A stretch of 64,000 nucleotides of DNA. Origin: Vitis vinifera (Eukaryota > Streptophyta > Magnoliopsida > Vitales > Vitaceae). Shown in pieces: positions 14,701 through 49,964 of the stretch. The DNA lies in the NCBI RefSeq assembly GCF_030704535.1, contig NC_081818.1:7429501-7493500 (forward strand). The letters are read 5' to 3'. The notes beneath the pieces were generated by a model. It worked only from the letters and a program-made list of their open reading frames with translations. It searched no databases and was not told the origin of the DNA. How positions within the stretch are numbered: the first letter of the stretch is position 1; the number at the start of each line of letters is the position of its first letter. Position numbers and translations under genes: made by a program.

Positions 14701-15261
14701 CGATTATTTGATGCATCATTGAAGACCTTGGGTGACCTAGTCTGTCATGCCAAAGGACAAAAACTTTTGGTCGTTGAACTTCTGGTTCATGTCAGCATAT
14801 GATTCAATAGGCTTTATAGTTGTATGATACAACCCAGATGAGAAAACCAGGAGTTTTTCCATTATAAGCTTCTAGCCAGATATAATGGAAGTAATGTAAA
14901 GATATTCTACATTATTTTCATTCATAGTTTCAATATGATATCCATTTCTGCGGATATCTTTAAAACTAAGCAAATTTCTTTTGGATTTGCTAGAATATAG
15001 AGCGTCATTTATATGGAATCTAGTTCAATTTGGCAACATTATGTTTGCTTTTCCAAAGCCTTCAACTAAGTTTGTAGTACCAGATATGGTACTTACATTA
15101 GCTTTTATTAATGTCAATTCGAGGAAATATCTTTTATCTCGAAGAATCGTGTGGGTGGTTGCACAGTCTTCGAGACATACATCATCCTCATTCATCTTGA
15201 GACCAAATAACACATAGATTTTAGATATAACTAAAAAAACAAGGCATAATGTAAATAACAA
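11727..15261 (-). pseudogene. Broken copia pol polyprotein of element 1
   Basis: Fragments in order on the minus strand. Protease (15261-15025) has DCATTHTILR in place of the usual DSGATxH-like motif. Integrase (14719-14021) shows three acidic positions, in HEDICGS, RLDNAGEF and NGLAESF. A linker region (to 12989) carries a tandem repeat and is followed by the start of reverse transcriptase (KWVFVRKRNENNEI). Further reverse transcriptase (12773-12495) has the YVDD catalytic motif. Then come the C-terminal part (12437-12015) and RNase H (11996-11727). Stop codons and frame changes separate the pieces, for example near 14010-14020, 12800-12990 and 12440-12495. No complete enzyme remains. Confidence 0.88.
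13350..13490 (-). repeat. 33-bp tandem repeat in the pol linker
   Basis: Four to five imperfect 33-base units code for an 11-residue repeat of the type APKEAHIEQE or TPKDPHIERE. They lie between integrase and reverse transcriptase of copia element 1. The unit length is a multiple of three, so copy number could change without breaking the frame. Confidence 0.75.
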
Positions 15262-20415: not shown

Positions 20416-23400
20416 AACAGAATTTATTTCATTTTCTGTAGAGTCTGAATGAAGCTACAAGGGTATTTATTAGCCTATAACAGTAAAAGAAAATGAAATA
20501 AATAAAAAATATTACCAAAATTTCTCCTGCAATCTTTCCAAAAATCTTTCCTATGATTTCTCATATAATCTCTCCTATAACCGTTTCTATAATCTTGACA
20601 GGAGATAAACAGTGTACTGGATAGTTCCATGGTTGCAATATTGGCACTGCACGTAGAAGTAAAGGAAGTTATATACTTGAGACTATGGCTGACATGGGGC
20701 ATAGAGTAGGTTATAAATTATATGTACTGATATATTTGTCTTGTAGATTTGATGGAGGATCAAATGCATTGAATGAGGATCAATGCCTTATGAAACGACA
20801 TGAAACACTGGTGATGAAACTTGTAATAGTTTGCATGAAAGACATGCCGAAGACTTTCACCTGCACACCCTCTTTGAGATCTAGTTTTGAACACCCTCTA
20901 AGGTATATATTCCAAAGGGAATCCAGCTCCTGTTAAAAAGGAGCTCATGAGTGGCTGATGAGGAAACACGGAATTGATTCTTTCTTTATCTATGGTCTCA
21001 CCTAGCACCATTCTCTCATCCTTTCAATAGTGTAGCTCAGAACAATAAGCGAGTATGTTGAATGGCTTGCTTGTTTCAAATCCATCCTTGTGACCTTGAA
21101 CCTCACAACTTTTCCTTGCTTGAAATGTTTTTTCTTTTCATTATCACTACCTGGTTTTATGGTAGAATCTGTCAAGCAATGAAGTCACAGCACTGTTCTT
21201 TTTGGTTCATTGATATGCAGCTCTGAGGCTCTATCTTTGTTCTTGGATGGGGGTTGGATCATGATAAAGAAGGTATAATGCTTTTATAATTCTCAGGCAG
21301 ACAGTCATTTACTTGCAGAGTAGATAGGATGATCAAGTGGATAGGTCCAGCTGCATAGATTTGTGCATTAGCATGAACATGAACTTAATTCCAAAACCAG
21401 TAAATATAGGATACTCATCTGCATTCGTAAAACCAGATATATATTTAAGTCGTCTACTGTTTGGGCCTGTAAATCCACCACAACATAGAGATTGTTTAGT
21501 GTTTTACATTTTATCCTCTATTTTCTATAGTGATCATTGGATCATGAAGATCTGCCACTACAATCTTCTGGCAACATCCATTACATTATTTCCTTTTTGC
21601 AATCTTCATAGAGTAACAGGGTTTTCCTTGTACAATGGAGTATTTGACAACAAGTTCAATCAAGAATTCAGTAGATGTTCTTCTGTCCACACCAAGGGGC
21701 AACACATTTGGATTCCCGTTTATATGTACCTTGAGTCATGTTGATATACATCATCAGAAAATTTGGGAATTCATTAGCGGCTTAGATGTCTTGAAAATAT
21801 TGACTCTTAAAGGACACAATATTGAAGACAAACTCTTCGTGGCATTGATAATATCAAGTAGTGCATCTCCTCTTGACTGCATCCTGCTATTTAGCTCTCC
21901 CTTTGTCATGGCTTCTCACACTCAAACCTTGGAGTCTCTAAAACTGAAAGGCCTTCACTTGCTTGTGGTTGATTTTAGTCAAATTTTCACATTTTGGGTC
22001 TTATAGGAGCATGCAGGATGGGTACTGCCTTCAGTTTACAGAAGTTACACAGTTAGGGACCCTCTAAGATCTATTAACAGAGTGTGGGTATGGATCAGAT
22101 ATGTAAACCAATGTATAAATCCTTCAAAAGCCCCTTTTTGCTTACAACAAAGGAATGAAAAGAAGAAAGTGATGGCAGAAGTGAAGTGAGCCATTATTTA
22201 ATGGTTGTAGACATCCTCTCCCACCACTAATAAATAAGTTATAGACATACTAACTAGTGTCCTCACTGAGGGGCCAGCCTAAAAAATGTTGCATGATTAG
22301 ATGAAATATCTATACCTGTAAGAGTGCACACATTACCCATCATGGAAATTGTTGATCCCTGGAGCTGCTTCTGTTGAACTTGTATAACCCTAGGGACTAG
22401 AACTGTGTATTTAGGTACCATTTTCTGAAGTACATGACAGGTGTTAAAAATTAATTTGAACCTTTCTCCCTCACTTGACCCTTTTAGCCTTCAACTTGGT
22501 TAATCCTCACATATCAAGGTGGATTCAAAAGGCCATATTTTCTCCAACTTCCTCTTCACTAGGGCTTTGTTTGGTTGTCATAAACTGCAAGTGAATGGTA
22601 AAGGGATGGAAAGAGAAAAGAAAGGAAAAAACAAAGAAAGAAAATATAAAGCACCAAATTGAGCCCTCTATTCTTTTGCCCTGTTCTTTCCCTTACTTCC
22701 CACATTTTTCTCCTAATCGCCTTCCTATTTTCCATCACAATCAAACAGCATGAATTGGTTGTGCCCTTCCATTTTTGTTTTACCTAGTTGTTTCTGAGAT
22801 CCAAATAGAGCCCATATCCTACCGTGTTTCTGAAGCCTTGGAAGATGTACTGAATTGGTGTTAGTGTGGATCTAGACCCTCTAGTAGGATTTTGGTTTGG
22901 TGGTAGGGTGCACATCTGCTGGGACTTTGTTTCATGGCTATACATGGAAATCTGTTTGTTCAATATATTGAAGATGGATAATCTTTTAACTACTTTACAA
23001 TTTTTGTTTCTTTTTCTCATTTTGTTCAATTATTATGTGCACCTGTTTGTAGGATTTTTTGGGAAATAATTCACCACATTTGCTTTATGTTGTTATTCTG
23101 GAAAATCTCCCAAAGAATTTTCAACTAGCTCTCATTTCATTTGGACTAGTTTCACATGCTGCAGTACAAGAAATTGAACATTTCTATGTGCCTGGATACA
23201 TCACATCGTATACGAGAAAATATGATTGCCTTTTTTATATTGACAGTGGGTTCCATGATTTGCCAGAAGAACAAAGAGGTCATTCTAAATTAGGTTTAGA
23301 TCTAAGTTACACCCAACTGATATGTTTTGTCCTTCCATGTTGGTAGAACTACTTTCAGAAGTATTGCAAGTATAGGGTACTTCTGAACATGGATTTTCTT

Positions 23401-23537
23401 GTTGAACTTGCATGTATTTGCAGCCGGATTTTTGTATATACCTGTCACTTGTTCCGTTATTTAAATCTAATTATCTCATCTGATTGTTGCTGTATGCTTC
23501 TGTTCATGATAGAAGTGCTGACTTACTTCATTGACAG
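20416..23537. other. Spacer; no gene that can be firmly supported
   Basis: Several open frames of 60-135 codons occur (for example 21337-21744, 21635-22006 and 23059-23346). The frame at 21635 contains LKILTLKG and TLESLKLKGLHL, faintly like leucine-rich repeats of F-box proteins, but splice structure and conserved motifs are lacking. Around 22560-22752 the ends GGGCTTTGTTTGGTTGTCAT and, in complement, CATGCTGTTTGATTGTGATG suggest a small hAT-like MITE. Confidence 0.3.
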
Positions 23538-23598
23538 CTTGTTGGCCAGTATATGTTCAAGTGAAAACTACGCATCTGAAGGATTAGAATCCTCTGAA

Positions 23599-24024
23599 AT
23601 GGATTCCAAGAAAGTGGTGCACAGTGGCGGATGCCACTGCCGGAGGGTAAGATGGAAGGTAGAAGCACCTGCCAGTGTTCTAGTTTGGAAATGTGACTGT
23701 TCTAACTGCTTCATGAGAGGCAACGCTCACTTTATTGTCCCTGCTGAAAAATTTGAGCTTTTAGGAGATTCAAAAGAGTTCCTTACAACCTATACCTTTG
23801 GCACTCATACTGCAAAGCATACTTTCTGCAAGATTTGTGGCATAACCTCGTTTTACATTCCACGATCAAATCAAGATGGGGTTGCAGTTTCATTCATGTG
23901 TGTGGACCCGGGAACGCTGACCCATGTGGAGATTAAGAATTTTGATGGAAAGAACTGGGAAAACTCTTATATTGAATCAAACATTGCTTCATGTTCAAAA
24001 GTGCAGAATGAAGAGATTGTTTGA
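23599..24024 (+). CDS. CENP-V/GFA domain zinc protein
   Basis: A single-exon frame of 141 residues fills the CENP-V/GFA domain. Zinc-ligand cysteines are in place: C12 and C14 (GGCHC), C32, C34 and C37 (CDCSNC), C77 and C80 (CKICG). The blocks FGTHTAKHTFC, ITSFYIPRSN and VDPGTL are typical of the plant proteins of this family, which are about 135 residues long. The family is named for glutathione-dependent formaldehyde-activating enzyme and centromere protein V. The substrate of the plant proteins is not settled, so the reaction is left open. The start at 23599 (MDSKKVVHSGG) is chosen because the domain begins at once. The open frame extends back to 23389, but an AG acceptor at 23536-23537 suggests an exon start at 23538. 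Any upstream leader exon was not located. Confidence 0.85.
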   Translation: MDSKKVVHSGGCHCRRVRWKVEAPASVLVWKCDCSNCFMRGNAHFIVPAEKFELLGDSKEFLTTYTFGTHTAKHTFCKICGITSFYIPRSNQDGVAVSFMCVDPGTLTHVEIKNFDGKNWENSYIESNIASCSKVQNEEIV

Positions 24025-28952: not shown

Positions 28953-29419
28953 TGTAAATTAACCATCAAAGTTAGGTTAGTCCAAGAGAATTTTAGGAAC
29001 TCCCCTGCTTCAATATGCACAAACCAATCATGCAACAACATTCTCCCAACATGATTTTAAAACAAATTCACATGCAAGATGATACTAATCAACACTCTCC
29101 AAGTTGATCTTCTCAACAATCAACATACTGAATGCTTACAACCTATGTCACATGCATCAAATGGTTTAGCCAACCCTCCCCACTCATTAGTCTCCTTGTT
29201 AACTTTTTAAATTCACCATCAAATGAAATCATCAACCTACATAAGTAAGCATAAACTAGATCAATCTTTGGCAACAACATGATTTTTTGATAAATTAAGC
29301 TCTCTGGCTTGCAAAACCTTAGTCAACACGATCAAAAGCCATTAACAACAATAATGAAGAGTGAGACCCTCAAAGAAGTTCATATTTAGAAAATTAGAAT
29401 CGATGAATATCATAATTCT
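28953..29419. other. 3' flank of the first restorer-like PPR gene
   Basis: No separate gene. From about 29245 onward it is similar to 40405-40566, downstream of the second PPR gene (ACATGATTTTTTGATAAATT in both), so the gene duplication included 3' flanking DNA. Confidence 0.6.
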
Positions 29420-31180
29420 TTACTGTAGAAACTCACTAAGAATTTGTTTTACAGATTGATCTAATCCATCATCAGACAACATTTCCACTAATACTGTGGA
29501 GGTGGATACATCAGCAGAAAATCCCCTTGCAAGCATTTCTTGAAGAAGTTGAATACCTCTTAGTGTCTCATTATTCCGTAAAAATCCTCGAGTAATCAAA
29601 TTATAAGTGCAACCATTTGGGGAGTAGCCCTTCCTCTTCATTTCCCCAAATAACTTACTTGCCTCAGCCAATAACCCTTGTTGACAAAGCCCATTTATCA
29701 TTATGGTATAAGTCCAAACATTAGGATGTAAACCTTTGGAGGAGAGATTGGAAAAGAGATCCCTTGCAGCCTCAAGTTCACCAGCCCTACACATGCCATC
29801 GATGACAATAGTATAAATTTGTATATCAGGATCCATATTACTACCTTCAATAGCTTTCAGCAAAGCTATAGCTTCATCAAGACGACGATTTTTGCATAGA
29901 TAGTCCAATAAAATACAGTAAGAGACAAAATCTGGAATTTGGCCGCGAGTTACCATCTCATGAAAAAGTGCTATTGCATCCTGGAGTCTTCCCACATGGC
30001 ATAGGCCATGCATAAGAGTGCTGTAAGTCACAGTGTTAGGAATCAATTCTTTTCGACACATTTCTTCAAAGAGATACATGGCCTTTTCTATCCTTTGAAT
30101 CTTGCAATAACCATTGATCAAGGTGCTATAACTGACAACATCAGGGGCAAATCCCTTACAAACCATTGTATCAAATACTTTAACCGCCTCATCCATTTCA
30201 GAACGCAAACAGTGTCCATCCATCAATGCATTGTAGGTGACTACATTAGGCTCCACACCTCTTTTAATCATCATATCGACTACATCATGTGCTTCCATGA
30301 CCTTTCCTTCTTTACAGAGTGCATCCACCACTGTACTAAAGATAACTACATTTGGCATTATCTTGCTATTTACCATTTCATTAAGCAGTGCTGTGACATG
30401 TTTCCACTCACATAAATTACATAGTGCGTGAATTAATGAGTTGTAAGTAAAAATGCTAGGTGAAATGCCTTGATGGATCATCTCAGAGAAAAGGTTGAAA
30501 GCTTGGGTTACTTGTCTGTCCTTACAAAGGCTATCAATGATGGAGGTATAAACAACTACATCAGGCTGACAATTTCCTTGTTCCATGCTTCTAAGCAACC
30601 TGATAGCGGCACTAGTGCTGCCCACTTTGCATAACCCATTTATCAATGTTCCATATGTAACTACGTTGGGTTGAAAACCTTCCCCAATCATTTTATCAAA
30701 CAAGTGGAGGACTTCACCGATTTTACCCTCAACACAGAGCCCCCTAATCAGAGTGTTGAAGGTTGCAATATTGGGTTGATGCCCAAGTTTGAGGATTTTG
30801 GCTAAAACGGAGAAAGCGAAACCCAACCGTTGCAAATGGCAGAAAGAGTTAATGAGGATGTTAAGAGTGTAAATGTTGGGTGGAATTCCAAAAGAATCCA
30901 TTTGGTGAGAAAGAGAAAGCACAGTGGAGTAGTGTTTCATTTTAGTGATGGAGATTAACAGTTTAGTGAAATCAGCAATAGAGGGAGGAGGATGCATATG
31001 AAGCATCCGATTAAAAGAAGAGAGGGCATCATCCAGGGTATTAAAATTCAGCGATTTGGAATGAAAGGTATTATGCGATGAAGACAAGAAATGAGGAGGA
31101 AGAGAAAGCATGCATGTACCGGAACCAGGAGAAGAAAAAGCGATGGTCGCCATTGTCGCCCTTGTCATCATCATCTTCAT
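29420..31180 (-). CDS. Restorer-of-fertility-like P-class PPR protein, copy 1
   Basis: An intronless frame of 586 residues. About 65 N-terminal residues, rich in Ser, Thr and Met with scattered basic residues, look like an organelle transit peptide. From about residue 60 there are 14-15 tandem 35-residue PPR motifs, each with the form NVVTYGTLINGLCK. The block NIYTLNILINSFCH followed by LAKILKLGHQPN is characteristic of the restorer-of-fertility-like (RFL) clade. RFL proteins bind specific organelle RNAs, usually mitochondrial, and some suppress male-sterility transcripts. The specific RNA target here is unknown. No E or DYW editing domain is present. The ATG at 31178-31180 has the same context as the homologous ATG of copy 2. 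A paralogue lies at 40567-42318. Confidence 0.92.
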   Translation of the reverse strand: MKMMMTRATMATIAFSSPGSGTCMLSLPPHFLSSSHNTFHSKSLNFNTLDDALSSFNRMLHMHPPPSIADFTKLLISITKMKHYSTVLSLSHQMDSFGIPPNIYTLNILINSFCHLQRLGFAFSVLAKILKLGHQPNIATFNTLIRGLCVEGKIGEVLHLFDKMIGEGFQPNVVTYGTLINGLCKVGSTSAAIRLLRSMEQGNCQPDVVVYTSIIDSLCKDRQVTQAFNLFSEMIHQGISPSIFTYNSLIHALCNLCEWKHVTALLNEMVNSKIMPNVVIFSTVVDALCKEGKVMEAHDVVDMMIKRGVEPNVVTYNALMDGHCLRSEMDEAVKVFDTMVCKGFAPDVVSYSTLINGYCKIQRIEKAMYLFEEMCRKELIPNTVTYSTLMHGLCHVGRLQDAIALFHEMVTRGQIPDFVSYCILLDYLCKNRRLDEAIALLKAIEGSNMDPDIQIYTIVIDGMCRAGELEAARDLFSNLSSKGLHPNVWTYTIMINGLCQQGLLAEASKLFGEMKRKGYSPNGCTYNLITRGFLRNNETLRGIQLLQEMLARGFSADVSTSTVLVEMLSDDGLDQSVKQILSEFLQ

Positions 31181-31476
31181 CGCGGGTACTTCAGTTCTAC
31201 GGCTTCAGCTTTACTCAACATTTTGCATAAAAGTATAGATGAATTTTTCTTCTTCTGCATATCGGTTTATATCAATATGTCATTTTTAGTTAAATAAAAA
31301 AAATTAAATATTTTAATTATTATTTTTATTAAACCAAAAGACAGAGTAATAACTTGACAAAAAGAGATGGATGGAAGATGCTTTTCACACCAACCTTTTT
31401 TAGGTGGACGATGTCTTTTCAGTTCGTAATTGCTATAATGGTCATTGTTGTTAGTTTTTTCGTTCTTCCACCACAA
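31181..31476. other. 5' flank of PPR copy 1
   Basis: AT-rich probable leader and promoter of the minus-strand PPR gene. Similarity with the flank of copy 2 fades within about 25-40 bases upstream of the ATG. No clear promoter motif was identified. Confidence 0.35.
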
Positions 31477-32432
31477 TGTTCATTACCTTCTTCTAAGTGT
31501 GTAACGGGAAACACATGGAAAAATAATCTCAATAAGAAAAAAATGTTCTCCTTGGATCATAAGAATTGGTATCAGAGCACAGTCTTGGAACCAATCATTA
31601 TGGAAGGGACTAGAACATAAGAACATTACAAACTTGAAGGTACTGTTAAACAACAACCACCTTATCAAAATTGTCGAAGATGGTTACAACTATAAACCTG
31701 AAATTTGAAGACATGACTTTAAGAATAGAGGAATCAGTTAATGAGGATAATGCCCAATTTGTAGGCGATTGACATAGAACATGGAAGGGAAGGAATTTTA
31801 GGCAAATTTGAGGCTTATACCTTTTGGTGGGTGCAATATGGTATTAGGAATTCAATCACTAGCTGAATTTGGACCCATATTATGAGATTTCAAGAATTTG
31901 AGAATGAAACTTATTGTTGATTGAAGAAAATTTGTGTTGAGAGGTACGACTATAGGTCACAACTCACAAGAAATTTGTTTCAACATATCACATTCAAAAG
32001 AATTCAAGGCATATGTCTCAAGCATCTATGGTGCAAATTTTCTCTATACAAGGGGATGAGAAAAATAAAGTTGAAAATGAACAATAAGGTAGCTGTTTAA
32101 CTTGTTTCCGAAAGACATAACATGAGAAGATGCTTACAAGATTCAACAAAAGTTTCCATAGTTTCAGCCTTGAGGACAAAGCTTCTTTTGATGGGAGAGG
32201 GAATGTTACAACTTGAATAAAGGATCCCTAGGATCCCTCAATATTTAGTTTCTACTTCTATTTAGTTTCTATTTAGATTAGGTAATAATCCCTTAGATCC
32301 CTCAATCTTTAGTTTTCATTTAGCTTCTTATATAAAATAAGGAAAGTGTTATGGGGAAAGACACGGAAAAATAATCTCAATAAGAAAAACGTGTTTTCTC
32401 AATTTTGGATCTTCGCTTTGGGTTATAAGACA
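31477..32432 (+). mobile_element. Small non-coding LTR element
   Basis: A tRNA primer site TGGTATCAGAGC lies at 31567-31578 and a purine tract GGGAGAGGGAA at 32193-32203. The 3' LTR appears to start TGTTACAACTTG at 32204 and to end near 32432. The 5' LTR (about 31477-31566) shares GGAAAAATAATCTCAATAAG with the 3' copy (about 32367-32386) but has lost its middle. The roughly 625-base interior has stops in all frames. This fits a non-autonomous or internally deleted LTR element. The outer ends are approximate and no target duplication was seen. Confidence 0.6.
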
Positions 32433-33638
32433 GTGGTGATCTTCATTATCCAAATCCCCACTCTCTTTATTCTAACTTCAACATTGATGAGAAATCACAC
32501 ATTTTGATGTTTCTTCAGTAATGTCTTATGAGTTTGTTTGAATGTCTAGGAAATAAGTGAAAATAAGATAAACCAGAAGTTTTCATCATTTACTTGTCAT
32601 CGAGTATTTTTGTTTGGTTTCTTCACTATTTTGAGAGCAAAAAGATTCACAATTTTGATTGGTTTTGTTCTTTTTTTTTTTTCATAATTTCTCAAGAGTC
32701 AAATTAGGTTTCAATGTTAATGAACTTAAAACAAAAATTAGTCACTCAATTGCGAGGATTGGAAGTGACCAAAGTTGAATAAATGAAGAGGTGGGAGGCA
32801 AATTGGGAGTTGGCATGCAAGTGGGGATTTCGCCTTTCATTGTTCACCTAAATAAAGTCATGCCTCCTCTTTCAAAATTATCAAAGATTTTTGGTTTCAC
32901 TGTGACCAAATTGCTTTCAACATAGCTTGCATCTGAACGCTCCACGCTAGCATCTCCTGCCTCTTAACCACAAATTGGCTCCAACAATTTTTCTTCCTAT
33001 AAGTTTCAAGCTTGGCCTCTACATCCCGCGTACTCAGCCTGCGCCTCCACCATTCTCAGGTCATCATGACTGTTTTCAACAGCAGCTGATAAACAAGTAG
33101 GAGACAATTCACCAAGGATTGAGATAATGGAGCAAACAATTGTTGAGTTGCTCCAGATCAAGCTGTTGGGTTCAAACTCAACCAGCTTACAGCATAACAT
33201 TATCCAACCAGCAAGATCAGACATGCAAGAGCAATGTTTCAACTGAAAATATTTGTATTGGTGCCTGCCAATGCAATGACAATCAACAAACAAAAACTAG
33301 AGATTCGGACAACATAACATTCATCAAGCCCCAAGTGCCTAAATTTAATAAAAAATAGAGAAAAAAAAAATACAAGCATCTTCCTGTTTTTAATGATTTA
33401 TAGTAATGCACTAAAGAAACTATGGCAACAGCAGTCTTTTATCTTTGATAAGCAATAGAAAATTGATAAAAGTAAACAGCACACAGCATGTCTTGAAGTG
33501 GGAAACTCTGTAATAGACATTAATCCTAAGGAGCCTCTGCATGCTGAACTATGAAATGTTGTTGTCTCATGACCTTGTTAGCTTTTATTATTTATAAGGC
33601 CAGTGGGTTGTGGCCTGGGATGGAGATTTGATTAGTTG
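32433..33638. other. Spacer with no recognised gene
   Basis: A minus-strand frame at 33006-33293 has no motif that could be recognised. Nothing else is supported. Confidence 0.3.
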
Positions 33639-33651
33639 AGCAGCTCTATTT
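33639..33651. repeat. Target-site duplication of the LINE, left copy
   Basis: AGCAGCTCTATTT is repeated exactly at 39649-39661. The left copy runs into the T run that is the complement of the LINE poly(A) tail. Confidence 0.9.
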
Positions 33652-33785
33652 TTTTTGATAGACAAAGAGAACCATTAGATTAAAAAACGCCAGAAAACAG
33701 GGGGCGCTCCCTAAGTACACAGGCTGTATACAAAGAAGGCCCAAAACAAGGCAACAAGAGAAAAATAAAGTCTAATAAGGATTAG

Positions 33786-36700
33786 CTAAACAACAACCCT
33801 ATCACCCAACAAATTCCGAAAAGAGAGATAGTCCAAGTCCAAGTCCATAAATTGTTGAGACCATTCAAGCAGGGACCGAAGAAAAAGTTTCCTCAATCTC
33901 GTATTTGTCATCTCTTCCTCTAGGAAGGTTCTTCGATTTCGCTCTCCCCAAATACACCAAAACAGACAAATAGGCGCCATTTTCCAAACTACACTCCTTT
34001 TCTTCCCCATGCCTTTCATTTTCCACTCAAGAAGCAAATTTCTCACGGAATCCGGGAGCACCCACACTACCCCAAACGAAGAAAACAACAAGTTCCAAAG
34101 ATCCCTTGTCTTACCACAATGAATTAGGATGTGGTTTGCCGTTTCCTCATTTTCTTTGCACAGGTTGCATCTATTAGCCATAGACCAACCCCTTCTCATT
34201 AGCATATCTATAGTGGAAATTTTACCCCAAACTACTTCCCAAGCAAAAAAACAAGTTCTTAAAGGGGCATACGAACCCCAAGCCTCATTTTCTGGAAATA
34301 AAGGGTTATTGTCTTCCTTCAAAGACCTATAATAAGAATTTACCTTAAACGTTCCTTTTCTCTCAATTTTCCAAACCAGAAAATCCTCCCCTTCTTGCAC
34401 CCTTACTGCAGAAATGTAACCCAAAAAGCGGTTCACCTCCTCTAACTCCCAATCTTGAAAGGGTCTTCTAAAGTGCACCTCCCAACCCCCACCTCCACCT
34501 TCTTGTCTTCCCCACAGATCAGCCACTATTGCAGAATTATTAGTTGCAATTCTAAACAGCAAAGGGAAGAGATCCTTTAGCTTAGAATCTCCTACCCACA
34601 TGTCCCACCAAAATTTGGTTCGTCTCCCATTTCCAATATGAATCCTAGTTCTGAGAAAGAATTCCTCCCAACCCTTCCTAATGTCTTTCCAAAGGCCCAT
34701 CCCATAAGACTCTCTCACCTCTCTAGTGGTCCACCCACCTTGTACCTCCCCAAATTTACCAACAATGACTCTTCTCCAAAAACTTTCCCTTTCTATAGGA
34801 AATCTCCATAGCCATTTTCCTAGCAAAGCATGATTGAAATCCTTCAAGTACCTTAACCCCAACCCTCCATGCCTCTTATCTTTACAAATAACCTCCCATC
34901 TCACCAAGTGGATCTTCCTTCTTTCCTCCATATCTCCCCACAAGAACTCCTTTTGAATTTTTTCCAATCTGAGTCTCACTTTCCTTGGGATAACAAAAAG
35001 AGACATGAAGTAGATAGGGAGATTTGAGAGTGTGCTCTTTATGAGGGTAAGACGACCTCCCTTAGAGAGATATTGTTTTTTCCACATAGCCAACTTTCTC
35101 TTGAATCTTTCTTCTACCCCATCCCAAACTCTACACGACTTGTGGGATGCTCCAAGAGGTAGGCCTAGATAATTCGTAGGGAGATTCCCCACTTTACACC
35201 CGAAAACTGCACCAACTCTATCCACCTCTTCCACTCCCCCAATTGGAATAATTTCGCTTTTCTGCAAATTAATTTTTAGACCTGAAACTACTTCAAAGCA
35301 GATTACAACCCACTTCCAAAAAATCAGTTGATCCCTATCATCCTCACAAAAAAGGAGAGTATCATCAGCAAACAATAGGTGGGAGACTAACACCCCTTCT
35401 CCCCGTCTTCCTGTTGCCTTGAAGCCCCTAATAAAACCATTCTCTTCAGCTCTTGAAATTAAACTACTGAGCCCTTCCATGATCAGCACAAACAAATAAG
35501 GTGAGAGTGGATCACCTTGCCTTAGGCCCCTAAACGTTGAGAAGAAATCTGTGGGAGTACCATTCACTAACACTGCCATTCTCACAGTCGATATGCAATA
35601 AAAAATCCATTTACGCCATTTTGGACCAAAACTTATCTTCTCCAAGACTGACATGAGAAACCTCCAGTTTACGTGGTCATAAGCCTTCTCAATGTCCAAT
35701 TTGCACACTAAGTCTGTCCCAACACTTCTCTTCCTTAAGTCTATCGCCTCATTAGCCACCAAAACAGCGTCCAAAATCTGCCTCCCTTCTACAAAAGCAT
35801 TCTGACTATTCGAAACCAATTTTCCCATTACTCCTTTCAATCTATTTGCTAGAACTTTAGCAATAATTTTATAAAGACTCCTCACTAGACTAATTGATCT
35901 ATAATCCTGCACATCACTAGCCCCCTCTTTCTTCGGGATCAGTACTAAGAAGGTTGCATTATGGCTTCGAAAGATCACATTCTACGAGTGGAGCTCCTCA
36001 AAGACCTGCATCACTTCCCCCCTAACAACAGGCCAGCAGGTCTTCCAGAAAGCCAGCGTAAAGCCATTCGGCCCTGGCGCCTTGTCTCCCCCCAGATCAG
36101 AGAGAGCTCTGAGCACCTCCTCGATCGAGAATTGCCTCTCCAAAATATCATTATCCAAGGAATCAAGAGTATTAAATAGACCAGACTCCACTTCTGGTCT
36201 TCTCACTATGGGGTCCTCAAACATAGACTTAAAGTAAGACCCAATCCATTCTTTAAGCTCCTCCTCTTTACTCAGCCTAATACCCATAACTGTTAGGCTA
36301 CTGATAAAGTTTTCCCTTCTCCTAGCATTAGCCATCCGATGGAAAAACTTGGTGTTGCTATCTCCCTCCTTCAACCAAAGGGCCCTTGACTTCTGCCTCC
36401 AAGAGATTTCTTCGAGGATTGCACAATGATTAAATTCGTCTCTGGCTGCCCCTTGACTCCTCCTATCTTCCTCAGAGAGAGAGCTAAGACTTTCTAAATT
36501 GTCCTAATATTTTAACTTCTCCCAGGCTGCATTCTTCTTAACTGAAACATCGTCAAGGGATTCTTTATTCCACAACTTCAGGTCGTGTTTCAAAGCCTGA
36601 AGCTTCTTCGCTATCACAAAGCTTGGACTCCCCCTAAAAATGTAAGACTGCCACCATTCTTTAAACTTATCCATAAATCCTTCCACCCTTAGTCACATGT

Positions 36701-37442
36701 TCTCAAACCTAAACGGGCTTTTACCTTTTCTCACCCCACCACAGTCCAACAGAATTAGACAATGGTCAGAAACAGGTCTAGTCAGAAGACATTGCATTGC
36801 CCCGGTCACTTGTTCCTCCCAGTCTCCTGAGAACAGAAAACGATCTAACCGAGCCTTAAGGGCCCCTCATTCCCCTCCTATCCAAGTGAAAGCTCCACCC
36901 CCCAGAGGTGGGTCAACTAGTTCAAACTCTTCGATAAAGCTTGAAAACTCTCTCATTGCAGTTGACATCTGCCTTCCATTGCTCGTTTCAGCTGGGAACC
37001 GCACTACATTAAAATCCCCTACTATGCACCAGGGATCATTCCACAGCCCCTTGATTACGACTAACTCCTCCCACAACTCCCTCCTCCCCCTTCCTTTGCT
37101 CGAACCATATAACCCAGAGAAAACCCACACAAAGCCCTCTTCACAATTTCTAAAATGACAAGAGATAGAAAAAGACCCCACTTCGAACTCCAACCCTTCC
37201 AAAACTCTTTTATCCCACATTACTAGCACCCCACCTGCAGCACCCCTAGCATCTAAAGACACTCAACCTAAATTCCTCCCAATTCCCACACTCTTGGCAA
37301 CCCTATCAGACATTTCCTTCATCTTTGTCTCCTGAAGACAAACTAGATCTGGCTTGTGTTTTCTCACCATTGACTTGATGACCATCCTTTTATCTGGGTC
37401 ATGCATGCCTCTAACATTCCAGGATAGTAATCTAAGCTTCAT
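33786..37442 (-). pseudogene. LINE ORF2: endonuclease-reverse transcriptase with five nonsense codons
   Basis: One reading frame of 1218 codons. The apurinic-type endonuclease starts MKLRLLSWNVRG and has LVCLQETK and IVGDFNVVRF. Reverse transcriptase follows with FLVLIPKKEGASDVQDYRS, RGLRQGDPLSPYLF and the catalytic FADD near 35358-35372. The C-terminal domain (zf-RVT type) has a CNLC...H...HC zinc pattern near 34090-34170 and CIWGERNRRTF. Internal stops are at 37263, 36867, 36693, 36504 and 35982 (lowest coordinate of each codon). At least two (36693, 37263) fall where this family usually has tryptophan, as expected from TGG to TGA or TAG change. No frameshift is present, since all segments are in register. 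Confidence 0.9.
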
Positions 37443-37510
37443 AAGGAACCACGGTCATTTGCCTTCCCAACTCCCCTTCCTTTGTCTCTTTTCCAGCCAC
37501 TCCATCATAG

Positions 37511-39643
37511 TTAATGGTGCTGACGAGCTTCTTCAACTCTCTTTCCTTTCTTGAACCCGACAATGTGCCTCTTTTTTTTCTCATTAAACTTCCTGATGAA
37601 GCATCTCCTATTCTCAATCTCCTTGAGAATTCTCAAAATATCCTCTTCAAAACCTTCAATCGAGACCCCCACCGACTTGCAGAAGCCTAGGAATTTCTTA
37701 TTTATCCAAGGGGATTTGTCGTTTTCCTTTTCTCTTACTCCAATAATCTGAAGATGTGGCGTCTGGACCTCACCTTCTCGAGACCAAAGGGATACCGCCC
37801 CTATCCCTCCCTCTTGGCAACTGACCCCTTCATTACCTGGCAGAGAGAAGGAACATCCATCCTTGAGAACCATGCAAAGCGGCAGTTCGGTCTCCAGGGG
37901 GTCTTCAATCGTCTCCTCAAGCTGCCTTGACTGCGAGATCCCCATGGAATTCCCCATCCCGGGAAGATAAGGAGAAGAAGAAGAAGGGCCAGACGATTCC
38001 CCTGAGACCCCCCCAAGAATAGTCGAGATGGGGTACATACCTGATGTATAGCTCTTCCACGGCGGGGCGTTTCGATCTTGACCCAGCGCCGACGCCTCCT
38101 GCATCGAGAAATCCCTGGTACACCTTGGCGTCGGGAGCTCCTCCTTGTTCTCCCCAACAGTAGAGGAAGGGAGCCCTAGGACTGATACATGGGCTGACCC
38201 CTTTATAACTTCTTTTGATCTATTGGGCCTAGTTGACCCAACCCATCTCCCCTCCTTTTTAAAGCAGCCCATACCCATTCTCTTAAAAAGACTTTTGGCC
38301 CTGTGGGTGCTGGGCTCCCGAGAACTATTGGGCCTAAATGACCCAGCCCATCTCCCCTCCCTTTTAAGGCGGCCCAAAACCACTTTCTTAAAAGGACTTT
38401 TGGCCCTGTGGGAGCTGGGCATCTGAGAGCAGGCAGGCCCTCCCAGCTGGTTCACTAACTCAGCCCGCTTGGAGCTTGGCCCATCCTTTCCAGCCTCAAT
38501 ACTTCTACCTTTTTCAAAAAGCTTCATTTTGTCCTTCCTAATCACTTCAACCGCCCCACCTTTTACTGCGTCAGGCGTCTCCTTCACCAACCCGATCACC
38601 TCTTGCAGGGAAACAAGGCCTCCACCGTCTTTTTTCCCAGCTTTATCCTCGGGAATCCGGATCTCCCAGCCTGTCACTCTATCGCCAACACTTGCAGCGG
38701 GATTTCCTCCTCCATAGTGCATCTCTTTCACTCGCTCCTTAGAACGTGGGTCACACCCTCCTTCTCCCTGTTCGGGTGAAGCATTACTCGTCTTGCTCAC
38801 TGGTTCATCTGCAACCTAAAGTGCCGAGAACCACACTGAGTCCTCCCACCACAACGGAATAGAGAATAAGGCAAATCCAGCTATCACCTCTAATCTTCCA
38901 GGCACCTCCTTCCCATTGTTTTTAACTAAAATTTTAGCTCCCCTTCTATAGCGAGACTTTTTGGTCTCCTCATCCACATCAACAAAACCCCCACAGGCAT
39001 CCCCCACCCTTCTAAAGAACTCCATGCACCAAAACTGAAGAGGCAGCCTTGGGATTCTCACCCAGGAAACATCCCTCTGAAACTCCACTCTTGAACACCC
39101 CATAGTTGGAGCTCACCAGTCTAGGGATAAGCGAACCCCCTTGAGCAGGCGACTCCCCTCCTGAAGCACTCTTTGAGCATCACCCTTATTGGAAAATTCA
39201 AAAAGGAACAATGCATCTCTTAATGCAGCTACCCTCACTTTACCACAGAAGCTCCACTGGGTGTTAGCCCAAATCTCCACCACCCTTAAGTCGGGTCCCT
39301 TCTCATCCTCCGCATCCCATCTTCCCACCAAAAAACGGCTGAGATCTTTCAGCTTCGAGGTGTAGGCCTCATTTCCAACTTCAATCCACACTTCTTCACT
39401 CCTTTTTCTTTCCCCTGTTGCCATTCTCTTAGTTGCATTCACATTGCTTAAATCAGGTCTAACAAGAGAAAGTCCATGCCCTCCTCCCAAAGGCCGAGAG
39501 GCCTTTGTTCCACTCTTAGAGACCTCACCAATTTTAGCTAACTCCTTCAACTTACATCTCATAAATTCCCAACCCAAAAGGTCAAAACCCTCTGGAATAA
39601 AAATGAAGTACCTCCTATCATCCTCTGAAAGGACAGAGAGCAT
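37511..39643 (-). pseudogene. LINE ORF1 (DUF4283-like nucleic-acid-binding protein), two nonsense codons
   Basis: A single frame of 710 codons with internal stops at 39113 (TGA directly after a TGG codon) and 38816 (TAG). The N-terminal part (DLRVVEIWANTQWSFCGKVR, then WVRIPRLPLQFWCMEFFRRV) fits the DUF4283 domain of plant LINE ORF1 proteins, thought to bind the element's RNA. The C-terminal part is low-complexity and hydrophilic. ORF2 follows after 68 bp. Confidence 0.82.
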
Positions 39644-39648
39644 AAGGA

Positions 39649-39661
39649 AGCAGCTCTATTT
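39649..39661. repeat. Target-site duplication of the LINE, right copy
   Basis: AGCAGCTCTATTT, identical to 33639-33651, directly outside the truncated 5' end of the LINE. Confidence 0.9.
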
Positions 39662-40566
39662 GAAGCAACTAATTAGAGAAAAAAAAAAAGAGTGATGTTC
39701 ATCCGATGCTCAGATGGCATAGATGTCTTTTGGCTTCGTAAATATTTATCACATGTACTATACTAGAGCTAATGTTGGATAAGCATGTTCAGGAAGAACA
39801 GGGTTTCTCTTAAAAGTAACATTGGCAGCACCCTTAGGATGGAAGGTTTGGAAAAATGCATTTGCCTTTGAAATTAGCAAGCTGTGGACTCCGCTGCCTA
39901 AAATTGAGATCTTTTAATACCTATGATCAAACCATATATAAAAAAGAAGCTAGGAAATCAACATCTATGCCTTTCCTGAACATTTCTAAACATCAGTCTT
40001 AGCACACTGCCACATTGGAACCCACGTACTCTGGTCTTCAATTGCTACCAAAAAACTGCTAATCATAGGTACTAATCACAACTAACCTATCAACCATCCC
40101 TCATACCACTTGCCTAAAAGATAAATCATTTTAAGCTCAACCACAAGTAAATAATTGGCTGAATGTTTTATAATTTCTACTATACATATACAATATACAA
40201 AAACTTGTAAAATCTCATGGGCATTCTAGTGCAACCAAGTGAGCTCAAACCTAAGAACAAGCTGCTTCAAGTAACACCAGTGGCAGTAACCAATGAATCA
40301 TTGCTCATATCATTTCTACAAGACAATCAGTTTAAGGTCCAATAAGTGAAATCCACATGTAAGGACACCAATGGCAAGTAAACATACAAAAATAACAGAA
40401 ATTGGAATGAACTAGATTACTCTCTTGCAGCAACATGATTTTTTGATAAATTAAACTTGCTTGCTTGCAAAAACTTGTTGATACAATCAAAAGTCATTTA
40501 CAACAACAGAGATAAGTAAGACCCTCCAAGAATTCCATATCTAGAGTTGATGAATATCATAACTCT
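39662..40566. other. Spacer and 3' flank of PPR copy 2
   Basis: No gene. From about 40405 to 40566 it resembles the 3' flank of PPR copy 1. Confidence 0.5.
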
Positions 40567-42318
40567 TTAATTAAAAAATCCACGTAGAATTTGTTTTACA
40601 GATTGATCTAATCCATCATCAGATAACATTTCCACTAACAATGTGGTGGTGGATACATCAGCGGAAAATCCCCTTGCAAGCATTTCCTCAAGAAGTTGAA
40701 TAGCTCTCAATGTCTCATTATTTTGTAAAAATCCTCGGGCAATTGTATTGTAAGTGCAACCATCTGGTGAGCAATCATTCCCATCCATTTCCATAAATAA
40801 CTTATTTGCCTCATTTAATAAACCTCTCTTACAGAGTCCATGGATCATAATATTATAAGTCCAAACACTAGGATGCAAACCTTTGGAGGAGAGATTGGAA
40901 AAGAGATCCCTTGCAGCCTCAAGTTCACCAGCCCTACACATGCCATCAATGATGATATTATAAACTTGTATATCAGGATTCAAATTACTAGCTTCAATAG
41001 CTTTAAGCAAAGCCATAGCTTCTTCAAGATGACAATTTTTGCATAGAGAGTCCAATAAAATGCTATAAGTGACAAGATCTGGCATTTGGCCACGAGCTAC
41101 CATCTCATGAAAAAGTGCTATTGCATCTTGGAGTCTTCCCACATGGCACAAGCCATGCATAAGAGTGTTGTAAGTCTTGGTGTCAGGAATCCATTCTTTT
41201 CGACACATTTCTTCAAAGAGATACATGGCCTTATCTATCTTATGAATCTTGCAATAACCATTGATCAAAGTTGTATAGCTGATAACATCAGGGGCAAATC
41301 CCTTACGAACCATCATATCAAATACTTTAACTGCCTCATCCATTTCAGATTGCAAACAGTGTCCATCCATCAAGGTAGTGTAGGTGACTACATCAGGCTC
41401 CACACCTCTTTGAATCATCATGTCGACTATCTCATGTGCTTCCGTGACCTTTCCTTCTTTACAGAGTGCATCCACCACCGTACTAAAGATAACTACATCT
41501 GGCAGTATCTTGCTATTTACCATTTGATTAAGCAGTGTTGTAACATGTTTCCACTCACACAAATTACATAGCGCATGAACTAGTGAGGTGTAAGTAAAAA
41601 TATCAGGTGAAATGCCTTGACCGACCATCTGTGAGAAAAGGTTGAAAGCCTCGGTTACTTGTCTGTCCTTACAAAGGCTATCAATGATGGAGGTATAGAT
41701 AACTACATCAGGCTGACAATTTCCTTGTTCCATACTTCTAAGTAACCTGATAGCGGCACTAGTGTTGCCCACTTTGCATAACCCATTTATCAATGTTCCA
41801 TATGTAACCACGTTGGGCTGAAAACCTTCATCAATCATTTTATCAAACAAGTGGAGGGCTTCACCAATTTTACCCTCAACACACAGCCCCCTAATCAGAG
41901 TGGTGAAGGTCGTAGGGTCGGGTTGATGCCCAAGTTTGAGGATTTTGGCTAAAACGGAGAAAGCAAAACCCACTCGATTCAAATGGCAGAAAGAGTTAAT
42001 GAGGATGTTAAGAGTGTAAACATTGGGGGGAACTCCAAAAGAATCCATTTGGGTAGAAAGAGAAAGCACAGTGGAGTAGTGTTTCATTTTAGCGATGGAG
42101 GTTAAAAGTTTAGCGAAATCAACAATGGAGGGAGGAGGATGCATATGAAGCAGTCGATTGAAAGAAGAGAGGGCATCATCGAGGGTATTAAAATGAAGGG
42201 ATTTGGAATGAAAGTTATTTTGTGATGAAGAGAAGAATGGAAGAGGAGGAGAAAGCATGCATGCACCGGAACCAGGAGAAGAAAAAGCCATCGTCGCCCT
42301 TGTCATCATCATCTTCAT
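40567..42318 (-). CDS. Restorer-of-fertility-like P-class PPR protein, copy 2
   Basis: An intronless frame of 583 residues from the ATG at 42316-42318. The frame extends upstream to 42366 but without another ATG, and the chosen ATG matches that of copy 1. A Ser/Met-rich probable transit peptide is followed by 14-15 PPR motifs. RFL-clade hallmarks are NVYTLNILINSFCHLNRVGF and LAKILKLGHQPD. It is about 83% identical to copy 1 across motifs 2-14 by hand count. Differences are concentrated at the RNA-reading residues (fifth and last of each motif), where copy 2 mostly has Thr/Ser/Asn paired with Asp. It is expected to bind organelle RNA; the target is unknown. A Mutator-like element ends about 127 bp upstream of the start codon, so its promoter is probably partly new. 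Confidence 0.92.
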   Translation of the reverse strand: MKMMMTRATMAFSSPGSGACMLSPPLPFFSSSQNNFHSKSLHFNTLDDALSSFNRLLHMHPPPSIVDFAKLLTSIAKMKHYSTVLSLSTQMDSFGVPPNVYTLNILINSFCHLNRVGFAFSVLAKILKLGHQPDPTTFTTLIRGLCVEGKIGEALHLFDKMIDEGFQPNVVTYGTLINGLCKVGNTSAAIRLLRSMEQGNCQPDVVIYTSIIDSLCKDRQVTEAFNLFSQMVGQGISPDIFTYTSLVHALCNLCEWKHVTTLLNQMVNSKILPDVVIFSTVVDALCKEGKVTEAHEIVDMMIQRGVEPDVVTYTTLMDGHCLQSEMDEAVKVFDMMVRKGFAPDVISYTTLINGYCKIHKIDKAMYLFEEMCRKEWIPDTKTYNTLMHGLCHVGRLQDAIALFHEMVARGQMPDLVTYSILLDSLCKNCHLEEAMALLKAIEASNLNPDIQVYNIIIDGMCRAGELEAARDLFSNLSSKGLHPSVWTYNIMIHGLCKRGLLNEANKLFMEMDGNDCSPDGCTYNTIARGFLQNNETLRAIQLLEEMLARGFSADVSTTTLLVEMLSDDGLDQSVKQILRGFFN

Positions 42319-42444
42319 CGCGGGTACTTCAATTCTAAATTCACAATATTTTTCAGATAAAAGCAAGTAATTATAATTAAATAAAAGATTTTTTAAAATT
42401 CTTTACAAATAATATATAGGGAGAGAGATTAGAGAAATAAGTTT

Positions 42445-46352: not shown

Positions 46353-47000
46353 TTGAGGGGTCACAAACCCTCTGGGGAAGAAGACTCAGTCCTGTGGAGA
46401 AAAGGAAGAAGGGGGCAATTCAGGGTAAAGGAAGCGTATAACTTACTGGCGAGATCTGGTGATACAGGCTTTCCCTCAAGAAGCATTTGGGTGACAAGGG
46501 TGCCAACTAAAGTTTGTTTTTTTGCATGGGAGGCGACGTGGGGGAGGGTGCTAACTTTGGATAGACTTCAAAGAAGAGGATTACAACTTCCAAATCGCTG
46601 CTTTCTGTGTGGTTGTGAGGAAGAAAGTGTAAATCATATACTCATACACTGTACAGTGGTTAGAGTTCTATGGGATATAGTGTTTGGTTTAGTTGACGTG
46701 AAATGGGTTTTCCCAGAAACTGTAAAGGAAGTCTTAGTTAGTTGGAGGGGTTCGTTTGTGGGTAAGAAAAGGAAAAAGATTTGGGATGCCATTCCGTTGT
46801 GTATTTTTTGGACGGTGTGGAAGGAAAGGAATAGATTAGCCTTTAAGGAGGGGGGGGGGGGGGGGGGGGTGGGGGGGGTGTTGAACGTTCAGAAGTTAAA
46901 GAATTTTTTTGTTTGTAATTTGTGGAGTTGGGCCAAACTGTATGTAAGTGAGGAGGCGTTCTCCCTTATAGGATTCCTTGAGTGGATGGCTTCCCCTTAA
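46353..47000 (+). pseudogene. LINE ORF2 C-terminal fragment (zf-RVT type)
   Basis: An open frame of 215 residues with KVCFFAWEATWGRVLTLDRL, the zinc pattern CFLCGCEEESVNHILIHC and IFWTVWKERNRLAF. These match the C-terminal domain of the larger LINE at 33652-39648. It has no reverse transcriptase and is non-functional. It includes a long G run coding for glycines. Confidence 0.85.
46847..46879 (+). repeat. Long G homopolymer
   Basis: About 30 G bases, broken once by a T (at about 46870), lie in the LINE fragment. The run could fold as a G-quadruplex. Its length may be inexact because such runs are hard to sequence. Confidence 0.8.
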
Positions 47001-47999: not shown

Positions 48000-49964
48000 A
48001 TGCAACGTTTTGGGCGTGGTTTCCGCTTTCTTAGTTCAGCTTCAGCAAGCCAGAGGGTGGAGTGGGATCCAACTGTGTCCCTTGCTCTTAAGCATGCCAC
48101 CCTTATTCTTCTTGAGAAGTGCAGTACAAGGGATCATTTCAAACAGATCTTGGCTCAAATAATGAGGATAAATCTTATTGGTCAAACATTTCCAATGAGC
48201 AGGCTTATTTTGTTCTCAGCAATTACACACCCTGAGAATTTAGACATGGCTGTCCTCCTCTTCCGTCATCATACTCCTCATCCCAATCTCTACATTTATA
48301 ACACCATGATCTCAGCCTTGTCCCTATCATTGAATCAGTCATTTGCCTTCTATAATTCCTTGCTCAGCTCTTGCATTTACCCCAATAGAAGTACCTTCCT
48401 TTTCTTACTCCAAGCCTCCAAATTTTTATCACAAGTGATGCAAATCCACTGCCATGCGATTATTACAGGTTCCTTCTACTATGGTTACTTGCAAAACACC
48501 CTCATGAAGATTTATTTGGAGAATGAGAAAATGGGGCTTGCTTATCAGGTGTTCCAACAGATGGCTGCACCAGATGCTGTATCATTCAATATTATGATTT
48601 TTGGATATGCCAAGAAGGGGCACAATATAGAAGCACTTAAATTTCTCCATGAGATGGTGGGTTTGGGCCTTAAACCTGATGAATTTACCATGTTGGGTCT
48701 ACTTATTTGCTGTGGGCGGTTAGGAGATGCACAATTAGGCAAGTCAGTTCATGCATGGATTGAGCGCAGAGGGTTGATCAAGTCTTCGAATTTGATCTTG
48801 AATAATGCTCTTCTGGATATGTATGTCAAGTGCAAGGAGTTGAGGATTGCCCAAAGTATTTTTAATGTCATAGTGAGGAAGGATACCATTTCTTGGAACA
48901 CAATGATTGCTGGATATGCTAAGGTTGGAAATTTAGAAATTGCCCACAATTTCTTTGAAGATATGCCTTGCAGAGACCTTGTTTCTTGGAACTCGATAAT
49001 TGCTGGGTATGCCCAGAAGGGGGATTGTTTGATGGTACAAAGATTATTTGAAAACATGGTTGCTGAGAATATTTGGCCTGATTTTGTCACAATTATTAAT
49101 TTAGTTTCTGCTGCTGCGGAGATTGGAGCTCTGCACCATGGTAGATGGATCCATGGTTGGGTGGTCAGGATGCAAATGAAAATAGATGCTTTTTTGGGTT
49201 CGGCTTTCATAGACATGTATTGGAAGTGTGGGAGCATCAAAAGAGCTTGCATGGTTTTCAGGGAGGTTACTGAAAAAGATGTAACTGTGTGGACAACAAT
49301 GATCACAGGATTTGCATTCCATGGTTATGGAAGCAAAGCTTTACAACTATTCTATGAGATGCAGGAATACGTAATGCCAAATCAGGTGACTTTTGTTGCT
49401 GTTCTCACTGCTTGTAGTCATAGTGGATTTGTGAGTCAAGGCCTTAGAATTTTCAATAGTATGAAGGAAAGATATGGTATTGAACCAGGAGTTGAGCACT
49501 ATGGCTGTCTGGTGGATCTTCTAGGCCGTTCAGGGAGGTTTTCCGAAGTCAAAGATGTGATTGAGATGATGCCAATGAAACCAAGTCGGTCCATCTGGGG
49601 AGCAGTACTGAGTGCTTGTAGAGCCTATGGAAATATAGAAATAGCAGAGATAGCTGGGAAAGAGCTGCTAAAATTGGAGCCTGAGAAAGAGGGTGGATAT
49701 GTTTTGTTGTCCAATATATATGCTACTAGTGGGAGGTGGAAACATTCAGACAAGATCAGAGAAATTATGGAAAGTCGAGGAGTGAAGAAGACTGCTGGTT
49801 GCAGTAGTGTTGTTGTTGATGGAATTATTCATGAGTTTGTGGCTGCAGATAAGCGGCATCCAAGATGGATAGAGATTCAATCCATTTTGTTCTGTCTGAA
49901 AAGTGAAATGAAGTTAGGAACTGATTTTTTGTTGGAGTACTTACAACCATGGTGCTCATGTTGA
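48000..49964 (+). CDS. PLS-class PPR protein, E subgroup
   Basis: An intronless frame of 654 residues. A basic, Ser-rich N-terminus (MQRFGRGFRFLSSASASQR) suggests import into mitochondria or plastids. The PPR motifs vary in length (P, L and S types), with blocks such as VSFNIMIFGYAKKGH, NALLDMYVKCKEL, ISWNTMIAGYAKVGN and VTFVAVLTACSHSGF. The C-terminus has the E region (SIWGAVLSACRAYGNIEIAE, then YVLLSNIYATSGRW and GVKKTAGCSSVVVDGIIHEF). No DYW deaminase follows; the protein ends about 35 residues later. E-class proteins usually act in C-to-U RNA editing by recruiting a DYW partner; that role is inferred. The nearest known type may be Arabidopsis At3g04750, from memory. Confidence 0.92.
   Translation: MQRFGRGFRFLSSASASQRVEWDPTVSLALKHATLILLEKCSTRDHFKQILAQIMRINLIGQTFPMSRLILFSAITHPENLDMAVLLFRHHTPHPNLYIYNTMISALSLSLNQSFAFYNSLLSSCIYPNRSTFLFLLQASKFLSQVMQIHCHAIITGSFYYGYLQNTLMKIYLENEKMGLAYQVFQQMAAPDAVSFNIMIFGYAKKGHNIEALKFLHEMVGLGLKPDEFTMLGLLICCGRLGDAQLGKSVHAWIERRGLIKSSNLILNNALLDMYVKCKELRIAQSIFNVIVRKDTISWNTMIAGYAKVGNLEIAHNFFEDMPCRDLVSWNSIIAGYAQKGDCLMVQRLFENMVAENIWPDFVTIINLVSAAAEIGALHHGRWIHGWVVRMQMKIDAFLGSAFIDMYWKCGSIKRACMVFREVTEKDVTVWTTMITGFAFHGYGSKALQLFYEMQEYVMPNQVTFVAVLTACSHSGFVSQGLRIFNSMKERYGIEPGVEHYGCLVDLLGRSGRFSEVKDVIEMMPMKPSRSIWGAVLSACRAYGNIEIAEIAGKELLKLEPEKEGGYVLLSNIYATSGRWKHSDKIREIMESRGVKKTAGCSSVVVDGIIHEFVAADKRHPRWIEIQSILFCLKSEMKLGTDFLLEYLQPWCSC

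Follow-up and report, generated by a model that had tools for sequence, protein, structure and literature searches.

The window considered here is the whole 64,000-nucleotide stretch of Vitis vinifera DNA that was analysed (C14:7429501-7493500, within a searched genome of 495.6 Mb on 21 contigs). Our subject is two genes on its minus strand, copy 1 and copy 2, which encode pentatricopeptide repeat (PPR) proteins of the P class and are laid out as follows.

29420..31180, minus strand: copy 1, P-class PPR gene, intact single frame of 586 aa
29510..30979, minus strand: 14 gapless PPR motifs of 35 aa in copy 1, with a partial 15th toward the stop
29251..31199, minus strand: copy 1 stretch shared with copy 2, 88.0% identical over 1,949 aligned positions
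40567..42318, minus strand: copy 2, P-class PPR gene, intact single frame of 583 aa
40657..42126, minus strand: 14 gapless PPR motifs of 35 aa in copy 2
40407..42337, minus strand: copy 2 stretch matching the shared stretch of copy 1

Both copies are assigned to the P class by their tandem canonical 35-mers and by the absence of E_motif among their Pfam matches; PF13041 scores 554 and 557 bits in the two copies, and TIGR00756 is matched as well. The open frame of copy 2 extends upstream to a TTG at 42366, and the ATG common to both copies lies at 42318. Homology between the copies ends 19 nt upstream of the ATG and 169 nt downstream of the stop. Their alignment contains a single 3-residue gap, near the N-terminus, and runs through motifs 1-14 without gaps. 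As described in passages of PMC11094755, each PPR motif pairs with one RNA base via its residues 5 and 35, here called the code positions. Read in that order, the code pairs of motifs 1-14 are TN NN NN GD TS NN SN ND SN SD CD TN TN ND in copy 1 and AN ND TN GD TD TD SD TD TD ND SD NS ND ND in copy 2; all 28 pairs given in an initial annotation of this DNA match the gapless motif alignment. Counts at code positions leave out the partial motif 15, and most counts also omit motif 1, as in that annotation.

Over motifs 2-14 the two copies differ at 76 of 455 residues, and these differences fall disproportionately on the code positions: 15 of 26 residues differ there, compared with 61 of 429 elsewhere (one-sided Fisher P=1.0e-6). 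The initial annotation had counted about 76 of some 456, with the same 15 of 26 at code positions, and the excess it described is confirmed as real in a proper alignment. By single position, 8 of 13 motifs differ at position 5, 7 at position 35 and 7 at position 29, with at most 4 at any other; when motif positions are paired in all 595 ways, 15 differences are reached only by 5+35 and 5+29. Residues next to the code sites (positions 4, 6, 34 and 1) differ in 0, 2, 0 and 3 of the 13 motifs. To say that the copies differ mainly at RNA-reading residues, as the annotation did, goes too far: the code positions hold 20% of the differences, four-fifths fall elsewhere, and position 29 equals the code positions in variability though it is not base-reading.

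The two copies belong to a larger family. A protein search of the genome, which scored 75 of its 973 candidates and therefore sets a lower bound on the number of genes, recovered at least ten genes with 73-100% identity to copy 2, after which identity falls to 47-48%. The nearest relatives at that lower level are C7:258663-260273, which is the outgroup locus L024 (41-45% identical and used only for rooting the tree), and C5:6954909-6956579. Eight of the at least ten paralogs lie on C14 at 7.459-8.018 Mb, that is, within 0.56 Mb, with one on C2 and one on C12; three further loci were dropped as repeats of genes already included (L006, L016 and L028, the same genes as L009, L004 and L003). None of the ten has an internal stop. 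Viral contigs searched by pattern gave ten matching stretches, none coding for a relative. Among the 45 pairs of paralogs, copy 1 and copy 2 rank second from the top for the ratio of code to non-code differences (4.06, median 2.31), and they therefore sample the upper end of a family-wide pattern; positions 5, 29 and 35 take the first three of 35 ranks for variability among the ten genes, with position 29 in second place.

The two copies, called duplicates in the initial annotation, are not a simple duplicate pair. Copy 1, copy 2 and a third gene, L011, are mutually 83% identical. In the tree copy 1 groups with L011 (support 62), and copy 2 joins these two (support 99). Which paralog lies nearest to either copy varies along the gene, and a simplified pairwise homoplasy index (PHI) test of our own coding gave 0.434 against 0.519 (standard deviation 0.009) in permuted data, with 0 of 500 permutations as low, which indicates recombination. 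Because a third gene is equally close and the genes recombine, this is not a clean recent duplicate pair. At 11 of the 15 code differences in motifs 2-14 both residues are present in other paralogs at the same motif, so part of the code variation may be shuffled, not new.

Ordinary tests of the ratio of nonsynonymous to synonymous rates (dN/dS, omega) set the code positions apart from the rest of the gene, as the initial annotation expected. A codon model of the pair, with kappa and time shared between site classes, puts omega at 1.49 for positions 5 and 35 and at 0.38 elsewhere (2dl, twice the log-likelihood difference, 16.8, P=4e-5), against an overall value of 0.42 that denotes purifying selection. 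Single positions of the pair reach 2.10 at 5, 1.12 at 35, 2.02 at 29 and 0.80 at 2. Over the ten paralogs omega is 0.91 (95% 0.75-1.11) at the code positions and 0.43 elsewhere (P=3e-8), with 1.20 at position 5, 0.72 at 35 and 1.19 at 29. Nei-Gojobori counting in the pair yields only 0.585 at the code positions, a low figure, since 12 sites carry the synonymous estimate there. The plain two-class comparison was rejected as proof of positive selection: omega is raised at the code positions but not significantly above 1, and since omega=1 is not rejected, the ordinary test by itself does not distinguish positive selection from relaxed constraint.

A neutral rate over all residues is the wrong yardstick for a base-reading site, because such a site can use few residues. 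Change was thus also measured within permitted alphabets. With hand-chosen alphabets (liberal, NTSGAC at position 5 and DNST at 35; strict, NTSG and DNS), each of the 15 code sites that changed in the pair remains inside the liberal alphabet against a neutral expectation of 6.0 (P=1e-6), and 14 of 15 inside the strict one against 4.9 expected (P=1.2e-6); in-alphabet omega at the code positions is 5.6 (P=1.2e-5 against 1). As these alphabets were our own choice, independent ones were taken from other PPR genes of the genome (183 motifs at 16 loci; residues at 5% or more), and all 35 motif positions were tested alike by grid search on the ten-gene tree. Only positions 5 (alphabet NST; in-alphabet omega 5.27, interval 4.1-8.8, P=2e-11) and 35 (alphabet DN; 3.17, 2.5-5.3, P=3e-6) are significantly above neutral. 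The best value at each of the other 33 is at most 1, with several intervals extending above 1 and with positions 12, 31 and 34 uninformative (a single-residue alphabet, or an interval covering the whole grid). Equally small alphabets at other positions (AG, KR, GR, ILV, AGS, STV) show no excess, and position 29 gives 1.00 inside and 1.54 outside its own alphabet. Fitted jointly over the ten genes, positions 5 and 35 reach 4.5 with the global rate and 4.68 with a free local rate (P=2e-8), and 4.3-6.0 across eight trees with permuted tips. In-alphabet change at code sites thus runs at about 3-5 times neutral over the ten genes; change out of the alphabet is held to 0.07 with the liberal and 0.21 with the independent alphabet. 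In the pair alone, position 5 gives 18.7 (P=7e-5, uncorrected). These results argue strongly against relaxed constraint, and they favour diversifying selection at positions 5 and 35 over it and over a mutational hot spot. The positive selection claimed in the initial annotation is in this way supported by the in-alphabet tests at both positions, not by a plain omega above 1.

Eight of the 140 motifs fall outside the liberal alphabet, seven of them through the same arginine in motif 11. This arginine, which is outside the usual code, stands at position 5 of that motif in seven of the ten paralogs (L009, L011-L014, L020 and L021); copy 1 has C there, and copy 2 and L010 have S.

Three other explanations were weighed. 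Gene conversion alone would hold that tracts pasted from other paralogs make the code differences in the absence of selection. It draws on the recombination seen in the PHI test and on the 11 of 15 differences whose two residues both recur in other paralogs. Pasted tracts, however, would bring their neighbours along, yet the positions flanking the code sites differ little or not at all; on the same tree, in-alphabet excess reaches significance at no further position; and conversion moves code residues but by itself creates no excess. We consider it improbable as the whole account. Relaxed constraint would mean that redundancy of one copy or of both lets the code residues drift, since folding does not need them. 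It is compatible with omega values at the code positions that do not differ statistically from 1, in the pair as in the ten genes. Against it, every changed site of the pair stayed within the base-reading alphabet, exits are suppressed and in-alphabet change is accelerated across the family, both frames are intact and the pair is under purifying selection overall; we consider it very unlikely. That positions 5 and 35 simply mutate readily, or can vary freely in PPR proteins of every kind, restorer-like or not, is likewise very unlikely: synonymous change at these codons looks high in the pair by simple counting (4.5 of 12.0 sites), but a freely fitted local rate comes to 0.97 times that of the whole gene across the ten paralogs and gives no sign of a mutational hot spot.

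We regard it as very likely that copies 1 and 2 are members of a restorer-of-fertility-like (RFL) cluster in which the scaffold is kept while residues 5 and 35 have been switched faster than neutral change, which should give the two proteins different RNA addresses. Each would be a 14-motif scaffold whose residues 5 and 35 read single-stranded organelle RNA, every motif taking one base. In this reading purifying selection holds the scaffold as residue 5 is switched among N, S and T and residue 35 between D and N, and exchange between paralogs additionally shuffles the code residues; with residues both switched and shuffled, members of the cluster should read different RNAs. The motif anatomy, gene family, cluster, code-position excess, in-alphabet selection and recombination come from the present analysis. 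RNA binding and a mitochondrial location are what published work on the family would lead one to expect, and the same literature suggests that the probable driver is an arms race against mitochondrial male-sterility transcripts. The data from this one genome support the notion that an RFL cluster alters what its proteins read while the scaffold stays.

The ten genes have ten different predicted RNA addresses. Aspartate at position 35 occurs in 5 of the 14 motifs of copy 1, in 11 of 14 in copy 2 and in 6 to 11 in the other eight genes. Copy 1 is accordingly predicted to read mostly A and C, and copy 2 mostly G and U; the predicted addresses are A-C/U-C/U-G-A-C/U-A-U-A-G-N-A-A-U for copy 1 and A-U-A-G-G-G-G-G-G-U-G-C-U-U for copy 2. 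The leaning of copy 2 toward G and U, which the initial annotation had singled out, holds relative to copy 1 and stays within what the family shows (5 to 11). Copy 2 is also not clearly the derived copy: when the 16 code differences in motifs 1-14 are polarized with L011, 7 fall to copy 1 and 6 to copy 2, 3 are ambiguous, and recombination blurs the polarity. On balance we lean toward a further step, in which selection acts as a switch between canonical base-reading states with rare exits and, together with exchange among paralogs, turns the cluster into a combinatorial library of RNA addresses with copies 1 and 2 at two ends. Ordinary dN/dS would miss such switching because exits from the canonical states are rare. 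The in-alphabet test separates selection from relaxed constraint, and it suggests why plain dN/dS understates selection wherever the permitted alphabet is small.

Several results weigh against the RFL interpretation and are collected here. In the ordinary tests, omega=1 at the code positions is not rejected in the pair (P=0.22), the ten-gene value is not above 1, position 35 alone over the ten paralogs is below 1 (P=0.04), and position 29 resembles the code positions in pair and family alike. Within the alphabet, the pair alone gives a modest result at position 35 (P=0.008, uncorrected for 35 positions, at the upper grid edge with a lower bound of 1.9) and a value of 4.1 at position 29 (P=0.02, uncorrected); exits at position 5 under the independent alphabet are only partly suppressed across the family (0.37). 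The in-alphabet fits were made with kappa and tree length fixed, the motifs for the independent alphabets were detected by a model that had itself been derived from the ten genes, and a single tree was assumed although recombination breaks that assumption, with the other positions on the same tree serving as control. As to clade membership, SD and SN are reported in PMC5075784 as the commonest purine codes of RFLs, whereas the 140 motifs here favour TN (16) and TD (16) over SN (10) and SD (7); this is a trend and not a strict definition. No named restorer is found among 52 PDB matches, which are synthetic, chloroplast, mitoribosomal and other PPR proteins, and the tree covers the ten paralogs and their outgroup. 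Finally, a code-based target scan, with base weights chosen by hand after the published code and general background, covered 17 of the 77 ten-kilobase stretches of the mitochondrial contig, one of them with 2,500 masked bases. Within these stretches the best score was 9.14 for copy 1, inside the 8.77-11.80 of ten simulated sets, and 10.97 for copy 2, inside 9.61-11.55. The site prediction proposed in the initial annotation was in this way carried out on part of the contig and gave no site above chance for either copy.

The contig scanned, C20 (770 kb), was taken as the mitochondrial genome on the strength of its frames for cox2, nad6 and ribosomal proteins; of 10 frames tested, 7 have a Pfam match, two of these seven to transposon families. 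A ribosomal protein L22 frame on it (L036:8730-9464) lies in a stretch with a somewhat lower GC content (0.41) and is possibly plastid-derived. A plastid element is carried by contig C21. The ten predicted addresses could be tested against this one mitochondrial genome.

The remainder of the window contains retroelement pieces of the long interspersed nuclear element (LINE) type and a third PPR gene.

33786..39643, minus strand: LINE-type retroelement pieces between copies 1 and 2, from Pfam matches, with no part in the mechanism
33786-35978, minus strand: RVT_1 and zf-RVT, LINE-type piece
39113-39643, minus strand: DUF4283, LINE-type piece
48000-49964, plus strand: PLS-class E-type PPR gene, 654 aa, uninterrupted, with an E motif

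A second LINE-type fragment (zf-RVT, 46353-47000, plus strand) lies between copy 2 and the PLS-class gene. The latter has PPR repeats in common with copies 1 and 2 but possesses an E motif, is 23-24% identical to them, and represents a different class outside the cluster; by its class it is perhaps an organelle RNA editing factor. Elsewhere, weak matches to RVT_2 and integrase below the Pfam cut-off, together with a GFA-domain frame, occur at 12989-14719 (minus strand) and 23389-24024 (plus strand); the two weak matches look like a Copia-type remnant.

The likeness of the cluster to the RFL clade lies in its well-matched P-class array of 35-aa motifs, its many close paralogs gathered at few places (at least ten genes, eight of them in the C14 cluster), its fast RNA-reading positions, the recombination among its paralogs and the rarity of the C-reading codes (NS in 3 and NT in 0 of the 140 motifs). 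Diversifying selection at RNA-reading positions, another RFL trait, appears here in the in-alphabet tests and not as a plain omega above 1. The motif number, 14 complete plus one partial with a strong consensus match, lies just under the 15-20 quoted for RFLs. No study treating grapevine RFL genes was found, judged by titles and abstract openings in a limited set of journals. Fast change at the RNA-reading positions of RFLs is credited to Fujii et al. 2011 in passages of both PMC5138203 and PMC5075784; the former gives diversifying selection as 5 to 15 times likelier at residues 1, 3 and 6 in its own numbering, residues later implicated in RNA recognition, and attributes the fast evolution to conflict with mitochondrial male-sterility transcripts. 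Variation at positions 5 and 35 is likewise described for rice Rf-1C orthologs in part of PMC5075784, so that the initial annotation was right to call this pattern known for the clade, as far as these passages go. A further comparison is with the clustered RFL genes of barley, for which the portions of PMC7380019 concerned list selection at positions 5 and 35 and also at 2, 7, 8 and 29. Positions 2, 7 and 8 are not above neutral in our family, and the barley work drew on many accessions and site models, whereas ours used ten paralogs of one genome and an in-alphabet test. Selection on positions 5 and 35 is alike in both systems and position 29 is prominent in both; the grapevine genes are thus a well-supported new instance of a pattern established for the RFL clade.

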